A DNA stretch of 64,000 nt from NCBI GenBank assembly GCA_020050835.1, contig JAGVKB010000138.1, positions 1 to 64,000 of the forward strand, given 5' to 3'. The notes beneath the pieces were generated by a model, which was given only the letters and a program-made list of their open reading frames with translations, ran no database searches and had not been told where the DNA came from. This document shows positions 15,523 through 24,936 of the stretch, one piece after another. The translations under genes and the position numbers were made by a program. The stretch comes from Candidatus Obscuribacterales bacterium (GTDB lineage: Bacteria > Cyanobacteriota > Vampirovibrionia > Obscuribacterales > Obscuribacteraceae). How positions within the stretch are numbered: the first letter of the stretch is position 1; each line of letters opens with the position of its first letter.

Positions 15523-15930
15523 GTGAACACACCTATGTTCAAGTCCATCACTGTTCTGGCAGCCGCTCTGGCGCTCTTCACGACCACCGGCAGCACACCG
15601 GCCGAGGCCCGTATCCGCGGCAGCATCGGTCTCTTCTCGAGCAACGGCATCGGCGTCGTGATCCCGCTCGGCAGGCAGGGTTGCCACAACCCGAACAACT
15701 ACTCGCGCTACACCTACCCGGGCAACTACGGCTATCCCGGCTACGGCAGTTACCCGGGTTACGGCAACTACCCCGGCTACGGCAACTACCCGGGCTATGG
15801 CAACTACGGCAACCAGAACTACCGCGATCGCAACCGCAACCAGTTCCGTGGTCACAATCGCCGCCGCGACTGCCGCCCGCCGCGTCCCCACATCCACAGC
15901 CGGCACTGCCGGCGGCACGGCTGCCGGTAG
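15523..15930 (+). CDS. secreted Tyr/Pro/Gly-repeat protein
   Basis: About 131-135 residues. A signal peptide (FKSITVLAAALALFTTTGSTPAEA) is followed by a short conserved-looking region and then hexapeptide repeats of the type YPGYGN/YPGYGS (about six, residues 68-92). The tail is rich in Arg, His and Asn and ends HCRRHGCR. The start is ambiguous: GTG 15523 is 2 bases from AAGGAG, ATG 15535 is 14 bases away. The composition fits a cell-surface or matrix protein. It lies between two acyltransferases. Confidence 0.75.
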   Translation: MNTPMFKSITVLAAALALFTTTGSTPAEARIRGSIGLFSSNGIGVVIPLGRQGCHNPNNYSRYTYPGNYGYPGYGSYPGYGNYPGYGNYPGYGNYGNQNYRDRNRNQFRGHNRRRDCRPPRPHIHSRHCRRHGCR

Positions 15931-19377: not shown

Positions 19378-19980
19378 ATGAGAAACCACAATTATGACTA
19401 CCAATACACTGATTTACTGCAAGATTCACCGGACCAAGAAATGTCCATATTGCTTCAGCAAGAATGGCTCAAGGAGGCAGCCGTTAGCAACCGTCTCCCG
19501 CGGAATGGCGATTCCCGGCCTGGCATCGCTCAAACCATGCTCCAAATCGATTTCAATCCTCTTCCATTGGCTAACTTCGACCCAGCCGCTGAAAGGATAA
19601 TCGAAATCTCGGAGGTAGACAAACTGATCGGCACCTGGCAAAAGGAGCAGTACGAATCACTCGGGGTAAGGCGCCTAAAACTTACGCCAGATGGAGTGTG
19701 CTTCGAGTTGAAAGAGGCGAAGACTCAAGGCATTAGTTGGGCATCAACATTGGCCTTCGAGGAAACATTTTCCTTCAAGTTTAGCGGCGACGAAAAGAGT
19801 TGGACGCTGCACAGCATCTCCGGTCTCAAACTCAATGGTTCAACCGTCACTAGGTTGCAAGCTGATTCAGACAAGCTGACATTCTGGATGGGCGACGAAT
19901 CTTCAGAGTTCGGACCGGCACAGGCCGACTACATAAAAGCGCTGATCGATCCACTCCTGAAAGCAGATCTTCGCAAGTAG
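19378..19980 (+). CDS. hypothetical soluble protein, 200 aa
   Basis: The ATG at 19378 has GGAGG about 7 bases upstream. No signal peptide or membrane segment. The second half (LIGTWQKEQYESLGVRRLKLTPDGVCFELKEA ... LTFWMGDESSEFGP) looks like a beta-rich lipocalin- or calycin-like fold in which a GTW motif opens the barrel; this is inference. The N-terminal about 90 residues are polar. It stands alone before the tandem paralogue cluster. Confidence 0.7.
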   Translation: MRNHNYDYQYTDLLQDSPDQEMSILLQQEWLKEAAVSNRLPRNGDSRPGIAQTMLQIDFNPLPLANFDPAAERIIEISEVDKLIGTWQKEQYESLGVRRLKLTPDGVCFELKEAKTQGISWASTLAFEETFSFKFSGDEKSWTLHSISGLKLNGSTVTRLQADSDKLTFWMGDESSEFGPAQADYIKALIDPLLKADLRK

Positions 19981-20155
19981 GCTGGAGCATATCAAACTAA
20001 TAGATTGACGCTAGAAAGATTTTGTCAGTTCACAAAAATTCCACGAATTACTCACGTTCTAATCACAAATGCTCCCTAAACTCTCAATTGTAAGGTTCAA
20101 CGAAACACGCCGCCAAGCAGGATAACAGCCATCATCCTTAACGAATTTTACCCGC

Positions 20156-20220
20156 CGCGCACATTCATCGAGGTCATAGACATGGGGGGGCCCGGTTTGT
20201 GGCCTTGATGAACGTGCGCG
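20156..20220. terminator. long imperfect hairpin H1
   Basis: CGCGCAC-TTCATC-AGG on the left (20156-20173) pairs with 20203-20220 on the right, with a few G-T wobbles and one mismatch; the loop is G/C-rich. It lies downstream of 19980 and upstream of the first paralogue. Similar hairpins follow each of the three paralogues. Confidence 0.5.
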
Positions 20221-20330
20221 AGAGTAATTAGTCTCACAAAACCGGAGGAACATTTGCCCACCCAAGACCAAACTGAATTTCGATCGGTCAAAGGCCGGTC
20301 CAGCCGCACATAAGGAATTAGTGTCACGAA

Positions 20331-20376
20331 ACTTTCACAAGCGTGACAAATCAATGTCACAAACCGTGCGTAAAGT
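20331..20376 (+). promoter_or_regulatory. promoter 1 of the paralogue cluster with palindromic operator
   Basis: GTGACA (20343-20348), 6-base spacer, TGTCAC (20355-20360), 10 bases, then a -10-like TAAAGT (20371-20376). A further GTGTCAC half-site starts at 20331. The same geometry recurs before the next two genes, so regulation by one palindrome-binding protein is likely. Confidence 0.7.
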
Positions 20377-20423
20377 ACGGTTTGTTAAGGCGGCAGGCGA
20401 AAATTCGGCGAGGGCTACGTAAC

Positions 20424-20789
20424 ATGGCAGTCAAAGCAGTTAATCAAGACCCCGACATGATGTTGTTCAACTTTTACAACGGTCGTTCGATGCAAGATCG
20501 CGACACGCAGCGCATCACGTCTCAAGAAATTGCTGCTCTCAAGCAAGCTGACAAAAAGGGACAGCATGCCCTGACCACCCCGGCAGCTGCTCTCTCTTCA
20601 TTCTTCCGCGGTGTGGCCGGCAGCGTGATGGACGCCCTCGTGCCCCCGGTCAAAAAGCACGCCATGTGCGACAACTACGGTCACATCGCCGACCTGGCCA
20701 GCTGGACCGACCACCTTCCAAAATGCTCGGATTGCGGCAAGACAATCACCTCCCGCAATGAGCTCCGAGGCTCGGTTCCAGTCAGATAA
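20424..20789 (+). CDS. zinc-ribbon-like paralogue 1, 121 aa
   Basis: The first of three tandem homologues. It has a polar N-terminus (LFNFYNGRS ... RITSQEIAALKQADKKGQ), a weakly hydrophobic middle (SSFFRGVAGSVMDALV) and a highly conserved C-terminal module MCDNYGHIADL-WTDHLPKCSDCGKTITSRNELR. The Cys/His spacing (C-x4-H ... C-x2-C) suggests a single zinc ribbon. The ATG at 20424 was chosen by alignment with the paralogues; an in-frame start at 20343 falls in the operator. I do not recognise the family. It has its own promoter and terminator. Confidence 0.85.
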   Translation: MAVKAVNQDPDMMLFNFYNGRSMQDRDTQRITSQEIAALKQADKKGQHALTTPAAALSSFFRGVAGSVMDALVPPVKKHAMCDNYGHIADLASWTDHLPKCSDCGKTITSRNELRGSVPVR

Positions 20790-20809
20790 GTTTTTCCGAC
20801 GCGCACACG

Positions 20810-20858
20810 CACTGAGGTCATAAGCGAGGACTCGTCCCGTTTATGACCTTAGTGTTTT
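20810..20858 (+). terminator. hairpin H2 with T-run, after paralogue 1
   Basis: Arms 20810-20823 (CACTGAGGTCATAA) and 20841-20854 with one G-T wobble, followed by TTTT: a Rho-independent terminator shape. Confidence 0.8.
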
Positions 20859-20920
20859 CAGCGCTGAGATGGCCAGCGAGGCCAGAACAAAGATCTTTCC
20901 GCCACGAACATTTCACAACT

Positions 20921-20954
20921 CTGACAAATCTCTGTCACAACAAATGACTAAAGT
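20921..20954 (+). promoter_or_regulatory. promoter 2 of the paralogue cluster
   Basis: CTGACA (20921-20926), 6 bases, TGTCAC (20933-20938), 10 bases, TAAAGT (20949-20954): same spacing as promoter 1. Confidence 0.7.
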
Positions 20955-21002
20955 AATTGCTGTTGAGGCGAAACGAACGGACCGATTGAAGAGGTAATAG
21001 CG

Positions 21003-21368
21003 ATGGCTGCTCAGCATCTTGAACAGGACAGCGACATGCTGATATTCAGTTTCTACAACGCTCGCAGCCGCGATCAACGTGAAACACAACGCATCACCTC
21101 GGATCAAATCGCCGCTCTCAAGCACGCAGACAAGAAGGGCCAACGCGCCGCTACCAGTGGCTCCGCGCTCATCTATGCCGTGTTACGTGGACTAGCTGAA
21201 TCAATCGGCGGCATGCTGCATACCACCAGCAAGAAGTACGCCATGTGCGACAACTATGGGCACATCGCCGATCTCTCGAGCTGGACCGATCACCTTCCCA
21301 AATGTTCCGACTGTGGCAAAGTGATCACTTCACGTCACGAGCTTCGCAGCTCGGTTCCCCTCAAATAG
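21003..21368 (+). CDS. zinc-ribbon-like paralogue 2, 121 aa
   Basis: The closest relative of paralogue 1, same length. Shared blocks are FxFYNxRSxxQR-TQRITSxxIAALKxADKKGQ and the C-terminal MCDNYGHIADLSSWTDHLPKCSDCGK with RHELRSSVP. The middle segment (LIYAVLRGLAESIGGML) differs most. The ATG at 21003 follows GAAGAGGTAATAGCG. No signal peptide, so probably cytoplasmic or membrane-peripheral. Function unknown. Confidence 0.85.
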   Translation: MAAQHLEQDSDMLIFSFYNARSRDQRETQRITSDQIAALKHADKKGQRAATSGSALIYAVLRGLAESIGGMLHTTSKKYAMCDNYGHIADLSSWTDHLPKCSDCGKVITSRHELRSSVPLK

Positions 21369-21384
21369 GTTTTCCTCGCCGCGC

Positions 21385-21433
21385 AAACATCGAGACCATG
21401 GACGAGCGGGGGCTCTCCATGGTCTCAATGTTT
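21385..21433 (+). terminator. hairpin H3 after paralogue 2
   Basis: Arms 21385-21402 (AAACATCGAGACCATGGA) and 21416-21433 form an 18-bp stem with one mismatch. It starts 17 bases after the stop and ends in TTT. Confidence 0.75.
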
Positions 21434-21465
21434 CATAGCCAGAATTCGGTTGCTTGAATGGGTCT

Positions 21466-21519
21466 GTCACGAATTTGTCAGATTCGTGACAAGTGCTTGT
21501 CACAAATCGAACTTACACT
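21466..21519 (+). promoter_or_regulatory. promoter 3 of the paralogue cluster
   Basis: GTGACA (21486-21491), 6 bases, TGTCAC (21498-21503), 10 bases, TACACT (21514-21519). An additional perfect 9-bp inverted repeat GTCACGAAT / ATTCGTGAC (21466-21474 and 21482-21490) overlaps the left half-site. Confidence 0.7.
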
Positions 21520-21563
21520 CAGCTTCCACCTTAGATCGAAATACTGGAGCTGTAGAAATACTG

Positions 21564-21923
21564 ATGAGAACCGAAGAGACCCGCCAAGTGTTCGATCCAA
21601 TCCTCAATGCCTGGGCAAGATCGGAGGAGGAGCGTTACGCCAACCGGATCACTTCCGACGAAATAGCCGCTCTGAAACACGCAGATCATCGGGCTCGCAT
21701 TCTGGCGACTACGCTTCCGGTACTGTGCACGGCCATGATTAGAGATCTGATCGCGGCAATCCAGCATCTCTTCTACGTTCCACCCAGACGGCGTCCAATG
21801 TGCGACAACTATGGTCACATCGCCGACCTGGCAAAATGGACGGATCATCTTCCCAGTTGCTCCGACTGCGGCGCAAAAATAACCGCTCGCAACCAACTGC
21901 GCAAAGCAGTGCCGCACAAATAG
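21564..21923 (+). CDS. zinc-ribbon-like paralogue 3, 119 aa
   Basis: The most divergent of the three. The RITSDEIAALKHAD block and the C-terminal MCDNYGHIADLAKWTDHLPSCSDCG with ARNQLRKAVPHK are kept. The N-terminus (RTEETRQVFDPILNAWARSEEERYA) is unlike the others. The ATG at 21564 was chosen because it lies downstream of the promoter; an in-frame codon at 21450 lies upstream of it. Confidence 0.8.
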   Translation: MRTEETRQVFDPILNAWARSEEERYANRITSDEIAALKHADHRARILATTLPVLCTAMIRDLIAAIQHLFYVPPRRRPMCDNYGHIADLAKWTDHLPSCSDCGAKITARNQLRKAVPHK

Positions 21924-21940
21924 CCTTCGCGCAAACGATA

Positions 21941-21990
21941 GGGCAAACATGGTCATACGAAACGGCAGCGAAGTATGACCATGTTTGCCC
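21941..21990 (+). terminator. hairpin H4, 18-bp perfect stem, after paralogue 3
   Basis: Arms 21941-21958 (GGGCAAACATGGTCATAC) and 21973-21990 pair perfectly around a 14-base loop. It starts 18 bases after the stop. No T-run. Confidence 0.75.
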
Positions 21991-22056
21991 GCGTTCGTCC
22001 CTAGTCGAACCGCAACAATTCCGCAGTAGAACTGCTTTTGGCCGTTTCACGGTTTT

Positions 22057-22077
22057 TCCACAAAACACGGTTAGACT
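22057..22077 (+). promoter_or_regulatory. promoter 4, degenerate half-site
   Basis: TCCAC (22057-22061), 10 bases, TAGACT (22072-22077): the half-site to -10 spacing equals that of promoters 1-3, but the left palindrome arm is missing. Confidence 0.4.
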
Positions 22078-22133
22078 GCCTTTCGAAAACAGGGCATGGC
22101 ATTCATTTGGCGACGAACGAGGAATTACCAATC

Positions 22134-22349
22134 ATGGCAGTAAGAGAATCTGACTTAAGATACGACGTTCAACTGGCTCTAATTGAGCCGGCAGAGGAAG
22201 AGCGCGACGCTGCTTCCGCTTTCGTATCTAACTTGTCGATTGTAACTCCCGTCATCAAGGCGATCGGAACCGCATTCGTAGCTGCCTTGAGCAGCTGGGT
22301 CATGATGTTTACGGAACGTCCAGCTTATAGCCAACTCCATGAACAGTAA
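22134..22349 (+). CDS. small protein of the paralogue cluster, 71 aa
   Basis: The ATG at 22134 has GAGGA about 10 bases upstream. The protein has a polar N-terminus and a hydrophobic segment (IVTPVIKAIGTAFVAALSSWVMMF) placed like the middle segment of the three paralogues, but the Cys-containing module is absent. Its 3' end overlaps the convergent response-regulator gene by 41 bases. It could be a truncated family member. Confidence 0.6.
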   Translation: MAVRESDLRYDVQLALIEPAEEERDAASAFVSNLSIVTPVIKAIGTAFVAALSSWVMMFTERPAYSQLHEQ

Positions 22350-22986
22350 CGATCACCGGCCGTAACTCGTCAGAGTCGATCTTCTGCCTGAGCCGCTTGA
22401 TATTAGTGCGCACCGTATCCGGCGAAGCATCCGATTCGGTCGACCAGACTCTGTCGATCAAGGCATCGGCGCTGAAGACGACATTCGGGTGTCTCATCAA
22501 GAATTCCAGGAGAGCGAACTCCTTTGGCAAAAGACGCACCTCTTTGCCGGCCCTGGTCACTCTGTAAGTGCTCGGCTCGAGCAGCAAATCGCCCGCCTTC
22601 AGCTCATTAGTCGCGCTTACTGGCGCCGGCCTGCGCAACAGTGCTCGCACGCGCGCAGACAGTTCGTCAGGGTGAAACGGCTTGGTCAGATAATCGTCGG
22701 CTCCAGCATCAAGCCCAATCGTTTTGTCCTTGATCTCGCCTTTACCAGTCAGCATCAAGATCGGCGTCTGGCCTCCCCGGCTGCGGAAATTCCTGCATAC
22801 GTCAACGCCAGGCATTCCAGGCAGATCCCAGTCGAGCACAATCAAATCGAACGCATAATGCCTCAAGAGTTGATCTGCTTCCGCACCGTTGTGAACGGCA
22901 TCTACAACATGATGCTCGGAAACCAGCCAGTCCTGTAGAACGCCAGCAAGCTCTTTATCGTCTTCAACGATGATAATTTTTGCCAT
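22309..22986 (-). CDS. OmpR/PhoB-family response regulator
   Basis: A 225-residue two-domain regulator. The receiver has acidic VEDD at 7-10, phospho-acceptor D52 in LIVLDWDLPG, and the conserved LTKPF lysine about 101. The winged-helix DNA-binding domain has LLPKEFALLEFLMRHPNVVFS and the DTVRTNIKRLRQKI recognition region. It is divergent from the histidine kinase at 23128 across 141 bases, so the pair is probably a two-component system with a shared promoter region. Confidence 0.95.
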   Translation of the reverse strand: MAKIIIVEDDKELAGVLQDWLVSEHHVVDAVHNGAEADQLLRHYAFDLIVLDWDLPGMPGVDVCRNFRSRGGQTPILMLTGKGEIKDKTIGLDAGADDYLTKPFHPDELSARVRALLRRPAPVSATNELKAGDLLLEPSTYRVTRAGKEVRLLPKEFALLEFLMRHPNVVFSADALIDRVWSTESDASPDTVRTNIKRLRQKIDSDELRPVIVTVHGVGYKLDVP

Positions 22987-23127: not shown

Positions 23128-24936
23128 ATGAAGCTCGACCTCAAACTTTCGCAAAAGGGGTGGATTCTCGTATCTGTTCCGCTTGCCTTCGAGCTCATTT
23201 TCGTCATCACGCTCGCCTTTCTGGTCCGGCAGGCCGAGGACTTAGCGGCGCGTGAGAAGCACTCGAAAGCGATTATAGACAGGGCAAACGATCTGGCGAT
23301 GACTTACTACGAGTTGATTCAAGGAATAGCTGTCTACACAATCACCGGCAAGAAAGAGCGCGGTCAGCAGTATGAAGATATGAAGAGCGCTCTTTTGACC
23401 GAGTACAAATCGCTGACACTGATGGTTCGCAACAATCCGACCCAGGCGGCCGAAGTCCAGCAGATGTCTGAGCTGGCATTCAAAATTTTGAGCCGCATGG
23501 ATCAAGTCAAAAAAGCGGTCGATGAGCGTGGAAAGAGCGCTGCTTTGCTAGTCTTAGCGCAAACCAGGGCTCAGATGGAGAAAGCCGGAGCGATACTCGT
23601 CGGGCAGTTGAGACAATTTAGCGCCAAAGAGCAAAATTCGATGGTGACTCCGGAAGCTGGCATTAGATCCACCTTCCTGGTCAAGCTTTGTCTGTGCATC
23701 GGCGTCGTTTTCAACATACTGGTCGCCGCCGCGCTGGCCTTGTACTTCAATCGCGGAACTGCTCAGCGGCTCGGCATCCTAATGGACAACACCAATCGCC
23801 TGGCCCGCAACGAAGCGCTGCACGCACCAATTCCGGGCAGTGACGAGATTGCCCACCTCGACCGCACCTTTCGCGATATGGTTGCCGCACTCGCGGAAGC
23901 CCGCCGCAAGGAGACTGCTGTAATCGATCATGCCGTTGACGTCATCTGCTCGATCGATGCGACCGGACGATTTGCAGCTGTTAATCCGGCATCGCTCAAG
24001 ACGCTTGGTTATGAGCCCCAGGAGCTGATCGGGCGGTTGTACATGGAGCTGATTTATCCGGAAGATAGACAAAACACCTTTCGCCAGATCGAAGAGATCA
24101 AAACCGGCAACGGCACCAGCTCTTTCGAAAATCGCATCAACCGCAAGGACGGCCAAATCGTCGATGTCGAATGGTCCTGTCACTGGTCGGAATCCGAGAG
24201 CTCGATGTTCAGCGTGGTACATGACATCACCGAACGAAAGGAGGTGGAACGGCTCAAACAGGAGTTTGTAGCGATGGTAAGCCACGACCTGCGCACTCCA
24301 TTGACTTCGCTTCAGGGAACGCTCGCTCTTATCCGCAAAGGCACTTATGGCTCATTGAGCGAGCAAGGACAGGCAAGAGTGATCAACGCCGAGAAGAATG
24401 TGCTGCGCTTGATCAACTTAATCAACGAGCTCCTGGAGCTGGAAAAACTGGAGGCCGGCAAACTGACCATGCAATTCGGAAATTGCCAGATCGCCTCGGT
24501 GATCACGCGCTCGTTGGACTCAGTGCAATCATTTGCCGAGCAAGCCGAGATAGAGCTAGAAGCTGCTCAATGCAAAGCGGTAGTCTACGCCGACGAAGAT
24601 AAGCTCATTCAAGTGCTCGTTAATCTGTTGTCCAATGCCGTTAAATTCTCACCCCCGGGAGGCAAAGTAGCAATTACTGTCACTGAGGACGAAAGGTCGG
24701 TCGAGTTGAGCGTCACCGACCACGGACGCGGAATACCAGCCAAATTCAAAGACGCGGTGTTTCAAAAATTCAAACAGGTGGAGCTATCAGACGAGCGCAA
24801 GAAGGGGGGCACCGGTCTGGGTTTGGCTATCTGCAAGGCAATTGTGGAACAGCACGGCGGTACAATCGGTGTGGAAAGTGAAGAAGGAAAAGGAAGCACT
24901 TTCTGGTTTCGACTTCCCAAAGGCAAGACTGCATGA
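23128..24936 (+). CDS. membrane PAS-histidine kinase
   Basis: A 602-residue protein. The N-terminal anchor is nearly the same as in the kinase at 6.9 kb (LSQKGWILVSVPLAFELIFV). An extracytoplasmic helical domain of about 150 residues, second helix (LVKLCLCIGVVFNILVAAALALYF), HAMP, a PAS domain (about 261-375, ending VVHDITERKE), phospho-acceptor H386 in AMVSHDLRTPL, N box NLLSNAVKFSP, and G boxes DHGRGIP and GGTGLGLAIC follow. The probable partner is the divergent OmpR-type regulator. Its last 4 bases overlap the thioredoxin gene (ATGA). Confidence 0.95.
   Translation: MKLDLKLSQKGWILVSVPLAFELIFVITLAFLVRQAEDLAAREKHSKAIIDRANDLAMTYYELIQGIAVYTITGKKERGQQYEDMKSALLTEYKSLTLMVRNNPTQAAEVQQMSELAFKILSRMDQVKKAVDERGKSAALLVLAQTRAQMEKAGAILVGQLRQFSAKEQNSMVTPEAGIRSTFLVKLCLCIGVVFNILVAAALALYFNRGTAQRLGILMDNTNRLARNEALHAPIPGSDEIAHLDRTFRDMVAALAEARRKETAVIDHAVDVICSIDATGRFAAVNPASLKTLGYEPQELIGRLYMELIYPEDRQNTFRQIEEIKTGNGTSSFENRINRKDGQIVDVEWSCHWSESESSMFSVVHDITERKEVERLKQEFVAMVSHDLRTPLTSLQGTLALIRKGTYGSLSEQGQARVINAEKNVLRLINLINELLELEKLEAGKLTMQFGNCQIASVITRSLDSVQSFAEQAEIELEAAQCKAVVYADEDKLIQVLVNLLSNAVKFSPPGGKVAITVTEDERSVELSVTDHGRGIPAKFKDAVFQKFKQVELSDERKKGGTGLGLAICKAIVEQHGGTIGVESEEGKGSTFWFRLPKGKTA

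Follow-up and report, generated by a model that had tools for sequence, protein, structure and literature searches.

Pho-box-type promoters before tandem paralogous genes in an Obscuribacterales genome and their probable OmpR/PhoB-family regulator

Three paralogous genes in the analysed 64-kb window (contig C47:1-64000 of a 7.0-Mb draft genome) are each preceded by four head-to-tail TGTCA-like half-sites with an 11-bp period, one per helical turn, the last of which ends 10 bp 5′ of a TANNNT -10 box. A fourth, smaller gene follows a two-half-site version of the same arrangement. The host belongs to a deep branch of the cyanobacterial phylum that does not photosynthesise. Judging from sequence comparison, we have high confidence that promoters 1-4 are real, conserved and functional-looking, and equally in their architecture and class. 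We consider them to be Pho-box-type, activator-dependent promoters that are read by an OmpR/PhoB-family regulator, most likely the one encoded at 22309-22986 under the adjacent kinase, and assign a probability of about 0.65 to this reading. The mechanism is already known; the host, the target family and the regulator clan are new. The Pho-box promoter architecture thus reaches into this deep branch, and its targets now include a family without known function.

The motif TGTCAC-N10-TANANT occurs three times without mismatch in the window, every time at this locus (20355-20376, 20933-20954, 21498-21519), and an earlier note on this DNA had given coordinates and spacing of promoters 1-3 correctly. 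Allowing up to one mismatch raises the number of matches in the window to 7 (1.49 expected), a count that none of 100 shuffles reached. A consensus -35/-10 pair was not found on the forward strand of the locus. When written in 11-bp steps, promoter 1 reads TGTCACGAAAC-TTTCACAAGCG-TGACAAATCAA-TGTCAC-N10-TAAAGT, promoter 2 reads CGCCACGAACA-TTTCACAACTC-TGACAAATCTC-TGTCAC-N10-TAAAGT and promoter 3 reads TGTCACGAATT-TGTCAGATTCG-TGACAAGTGCT-TGTCAC-N10-TACACT. For gene 4, a half-site with the same spacing had been proposed. The N10 spacing is present, but instead of a lone TGTCAC the site is a pair of half-sites 11 bp apart (TTTCACGGTTT-TTCCAC-N10-TAGACT, with TTCCAC-N10-TAGACT at 22056-22077 and TTTCAC at 22045). 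All features are listed in Table 1.

Table 1. Promoters, genes and neighbouring regulatory genes at the locus (window positions).
Feature	Position	Strand	Description
Tentative fifth, degenerate array	20028..20082	+	GTTCAC, TTCCAC, ACTCAC, AATCAC; N10; TAAACT; no clear gene after it
Promoter 1 (gene 1)	20322..20376	+	half-sites TGTCAC, TTTCAC, TGACAA, TGTCAC; N10; -10 box TAAAGT (20371-20376)
Gene 1	20424..20789	+	121 aa, putative zinc-binding paralogue: MCDNYGHIADLASWTDHLPKCSDCG
Promoter 2 (gene 2)	20900..20954	+	half-sites CGCCAC, TTTCAC, TGACAA, TGTCAC; N10; -10 box TAAAGT
Gene 2	21003..21368	+	121 aa, paralogue, 63% identical to gene 1
Promoter 3 (gene 3)	21465..21519	+	half-sites TGTCAC, TGTCAG, TGACAA, TGTCAC; N10; -10 box TACACT
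Gene 3	21564..21923	+	119 aa, paralogue, 48% identical to gene 2
Promoter 4 (gene 4)	22045..22077	+	two half-sites TTTCAC, TTCCAC; N10; -10 box TAGACT; the genome-wide two-half-site form
Gene 4	22134..22349	+	71 aa; no zinc motif; C-terminal half hydrophobic; start region like that of gene 1
OmpR/PhoB-type response regulator	22309..22986	-	Response_reg + Trans_reg_C; convergent with gene 4; recognition helix SPDTVRTNIKRLR
Sensor histidine kinase	23128..24936	+	CHASE3-like, weak HAMP, PAS, HisKA, HATPase; divergent neighbour of the regulator

When promoters 1-3 are compared with each other, 20 of 24 columns are invariant within the half-sites versus 5 of 15 in the linkers, and the flanking DNA is just 15-41% identical in pairwise comparison. 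The half-sites are thus under constraint, and we reject the view that the promoters resemble each other only because they were duplicated recently. The arrangement recurs in relatives. Of 48 target homologues in the family, 8 carry a same-strand site upstream with a score of 18 or higher, where dinucleotide shuffles predict 0.03; with the limit lowered to 14, the count is 10 against a predicted 0.35. The number of sites in front of these 48 genes has its maximum exactly at period 11 combined with spacing 10 and declines to either side. Seven promoters from four genomes and three genera could be aligned over 55 bp without a gap. The array geometry was found before homologous genes in five other genomes of the family, where the half-site is often TGCCAA (G016:C156, G015:C262, G041:C13, G026:C132) or TTTCAA (G006:C13); TGTCAC is found at G016:C97.

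The phoA promoter of Escherichia coli (NC_000913.3) reads TGTCATAAAGT-TGTCAC-GGCCGAGACT-TATAGT, that is TGTCAT-N5-TGTCAC-N10-TATAGT. Pho boxes are composed of 11-nt direct repeat units (PMC4415409), the Pho box read by PhoB sits "10 bp upstream of the -10" (PMC1906773), and in a structural model PhoB and the C-terminal domain of sigma jointly occupy the -35 region (PMC3348028). The promoters described here share with the PhoB/phoA system the 11-bp TGTCA-like direct repeats, the distance of 10 bp to the -10 box and the absence of a -35 consensus. They differ in having four half-sites with a degenerate third and in having tandem paralogues of an uncharacterised family as targets; also, the neighbouring regulator scores below the PhoB model cut-off and a Pst system was not detected. 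The SphR boxes of cyanobacteria (CTTAACCT) are tandem 8-bp repeats with 3-bp linkers, occurring at least three times (PMC1906773), which again results in an 11-bp period. The likeness to SphR covers this period and the OmpR/PhoB family of the regulator, but the half-site is a different one and is not tied to phosphate genes.

Because the 11-bp period and the 10-bp spacer are those of E. coli phoA, activation by a response regulator of the OmpR/PhoB family is most likely. Such a regulator very probably sits on the -35 region and brings in RNA polymerase from there. What we infer from the sequence arrangement is that a regulator binds, that it is phosphorylated, that it activates and does not repress, and which regulator it is. 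In its phosphorylated form it would bind the four 11-bp half-sites head to tail, with two dimers per promoter, while a single dimer would occupy the two half-sites before gene 4, and it would recruit RNA polymerase via contact with sigma. With 10 bp between the last half-site and the -10 box, the protein would cover the missing -35 element. Every paralogue would be equipped with a switch of its own, and a single signal would act on all of them together.

The best candidate, which we name with moderate confidence, is the regulator encoded 0.4-2 kb away beside a sensor kinase. Both of its domains score above cut-off (PF00072 with 99.9 bits, PF00486 with 85.4 bits). A receiver domain with the phospho-acceptor D51, which is invariant in the alignment, and the C-terminal winged helix of the Trans_reg_C type make it a member of the OmpR/PhoB family. 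Its closest named relatives come from Candidatus Obscuribacterales and Melainabacteria assemblies, which places the host probably in the family around Obscuribacter. MtrA, RegX3, RppA and PhoB-like regulators are its best full-length matches and have the same domain organisation, but unlike these it belongs to a lineage-specific clan and passes no curated equivalog cut-off. The kinase is its probable partner and would control its activity. Among the papers searched, none joins Obscuribacter and response regulators, and none is relevant for Obscuribacterales or Melainabacteria.

The earlier note had described an inverted repeat, GTGACA-N6-TGTCAC, together with extra half-sites. It is found without mismatch at 20343 and 21486, and with CTGACA as first arm at 20921. 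These letters are there, but palindrome and extra half-sites both belong to one regular 11-bp array; TGACA and TGTCA are reverse complements, and the apparent palindrome therefore consists of half-sites 3 and 4. A dimeric repressor or activator acting on the inverted repeat would explain its perfection in promoters 1 and 3 and the extra dyads in promoter 3, yet the first arm deviates in promoter 2, and relatives have TGATCC or TGCCC in its place without losing the 11-bp direct register. In addition, the dyad centre would fall near -31, and the spacing is unlike that of CRP/FNR sites (GTGA-N6-TCAC). With the dyad absent in relatives, we have rejected the palindromic operator, and control through such a repeat is very improbable. 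What holds from the earlier proposal is that the fixed spacing, a geometry kept in other genera, implies an activator over the -35 region. Slightly less credible still is a true phosphate (Pho/Sph) regulon under a PhoB/SphR-like regulator encoded beside PhoU on contig C88. The promoter geometry is identical to that of E. coli phoA, and a cluster of kinase, regulator and PhoU genes does exist in the genome (L011 7471-9622, C88), but this cluster has no repeat-array box, its regulator reaches 206 bits against a PhoB cut-off of 296, PstS has no match and the best PstB candidate scores 162.8 bits where 343.2 are required. The genes after the motif sites are not recognisable as phosphate genes. The regulator adjoining gene 4 scores 206.6 bits (PhoB cut-off 296.2) and is thus not a PhoB/SphR orthologue by this measure. 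A phosphate regulon is not supported, as PstS and a PstB above cut-off are missing and neither regulator reaches the PhoB cut-off.

A more serious competitor emerges from pattern searches across the genome, in which reversed patterns served as control. The strict motif, for which a genome-wide search had been suggested, is not enriched (9 matches versus 6 in the control). The two-half-site pattern TKTCAC-N5-TKTCAC-N10-TANNNT, however, has 33 matches versus 2 with up to one mismatch and 106 versus 32 with up to two mismatches, and those examined are mostly intergenic, 5′ of a gene on the same strand. As TTTCAC-type motifs occur at dozens of promoters, strict exclusivity of the regulator is unlikely. 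There is probably a global regulator that recognises a similar half-site and may cross-read the promoters of the window; the dedicated regulator suggested in the earlier note may thus share its sites with one or more paralogues. Taken further, a global regulator conserved throughout the family (e.g. C145:13689, helix SPETIRTYIKRLR) would read the arrays as well as the TTTCACGAAAnTTTCACAA promoters genome-wide, and the neighbouring regulator would be incidental. The upstream pair of promoter 1 (TGTCACGAAACTTTCACAA) fits the genome-wide consensus, and loci with a C145-type helix in three other genomes of the family have TTCCACAATTTTGCCACAA-N10-TACACT about 1.7-2 kb away. On the other hand, four-half-site TGTCA arrays of such strength occur only at the window locus within the examined sequence of this genome, several target genes in other genera adjoin a regulator gene of their own, and the half-site differs between modules of one genome. 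We therefore consider this alternative rather unlikely and prefer the neighbouring regulator.

A few of the genome-wide sites deserve mention. At three of them (L001, L077 and L080, at C3:66035, C3:66507 and C8:4495), short and almost identical sequences, GGGATAGCCAATCAGGGCGGATGAAGTCCAGCC-ATCTCCG-CCTGAACTGG, come after the two-half-site promoter, in one case with a T-run behind them; they resemble sibling small RNAs. At five others (L058, L059, L061, L082 and L084, on C17, C34 and C24), the genes after TTTCACGAAA-type promoters encode large, hydrophilic proteins specific to the lineage, in one of which a CAP-like stretch was noticed by eye. These promoters are candidates for a global regulon.

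Relatives of the regulator encoded at 22309-22986 (E < 1e-60) are found in 49 of 50 genomes of the family, its own included, with up to 46 per genome. In the genome of the window (G000), 51 OmpR-type DNA-binding domains were matched in 7.0 Mb. Some 40 of these approximately 50 domains form a single lineage-specific clan with variable recognition helices. An OmpR-type regulator gene lies within 3 kb of 10 of the 31 target genes (8 loci); by our own estimate from the 51 domains in 7.0 Mb, about 1.5 are expected, and some of the loci had been chosen with the knowledge that a regulator is nearby. At G016:C97, the order is regulator gene (65% sequence identity), TGTCAC array, target gene. This genome has two regulator-target modules, one with the helix DAIRTCLKRLR beside TGTCAC and the other with DAVSTCIKRLR beside TGCCAA, and the latter pairing is found again in G015. 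As such pairings come from four loci including the window, we treat them as a hypothesis and not as a rule. Within about 5 kb of the excellent arrays at G041:C13 and G026:C132, no clan regulator is encoded, which counts against the neighbouring regulator being the reader.

Other clan regulators also have boxes of the same geometry nearby, with different half-sites: four copies of GCTCAC (C141), four copies of GGACGC (C18), TGCACA (C128 and C68), TCTCAC (C114) and TGTTAC (C122). Sites scoring at least 18 occur at 12 of 110 regulator loci versus none in 330 shuffled loci, and period 11 with a spacing of 9-11 is prominent over other combinations. Strong boxes are modestly commoner near regulators than elsewhere (7 versus 2 with N10, P 0.07; 12 versus 2 with N9). 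TGCACA is nearly private, with 3 of its 4 genome-wide matches near the regulators on C128 and C68 (control 0), while GGACGC is not private to its regulator locus (1 of 5 matches near, control 3). A Mantel test for covariation of helix and half-site on the full set of automatically chosen sites gave r near 0 (P 0.44-0.50). Apparent matches between helix and box are anecdotal: the GTTCAC-nCAG type occurs twice with C101 and once with C10, and TGCACA with C68 and C128.

It is conceivable, and we put this forward tentatively as somewhat short of an even chance, that the Obscuribacterales represent a natural library of insulated regulator-promoter pairs. An ancestral OmpR/PhoB-type regulator would have expanded to about 40 paralogues per genome, with the geometry staying fixed while the half-sites drifted (TGTCAC, TGCCAA, TGCACA, GCTCAC, GGACGC, TGTTAC and others). 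Signalling pathways would then be kept apart both by their kinases and by their DNA sites. If target genes are indeed read by neighbouring regulators, then the roughly 50 regulators of the OmpR type in this genome, several of which have private half-sites nearby, would make a recognition code and the insulation of paralogues testable from natural variation.

The target family occurs in 32 of the 99 genomes searched, all of them from the host's own family, and a search of named genomes with the target protein gave no match. C82, H87, C101 and C104 (gene 2 numbering) are invariant in the three paralogues and are retained in most of the relatives examined. They are consistent with a zinc site. 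The zinc ribbon of the earlier note is thus plausible by its conserved C-x4-H and C-x2-C motifs, but no Pfam model matches genes 1-3 above cut-off (zf-C2HC5 with 14.5 bits, cut-off 25.8). An AlphaFold model of gene 2, based on a three-sequence alignment, has a pLDDT of 48 and is too poor for fold comparison.

Rfam has no match to 20028-20220 or to any other part of the region 19900-22500. A long hairpin with a stem of about 18-25 bp follows each transcription unit (20156-20220, 20801-20864, 21381-21438 and 21938-21994, forward strand). These hairpins fold 6-8 standard deviations better than shuffled sequences and lack clear T-runs; they are possibly unit terminators or a shared insulating element. 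The first of them follows the degenerate array with TAAACT, and the segment 20028-20220 (forward strand) may be a small RNA unit in front of gene 1. Elsewhere in the window, the forward-strand ORF 15523-15930 has an unusual composition, with YPGYGNYPGYGNYPGYG repeats and a basic tail rich in Arg and His.
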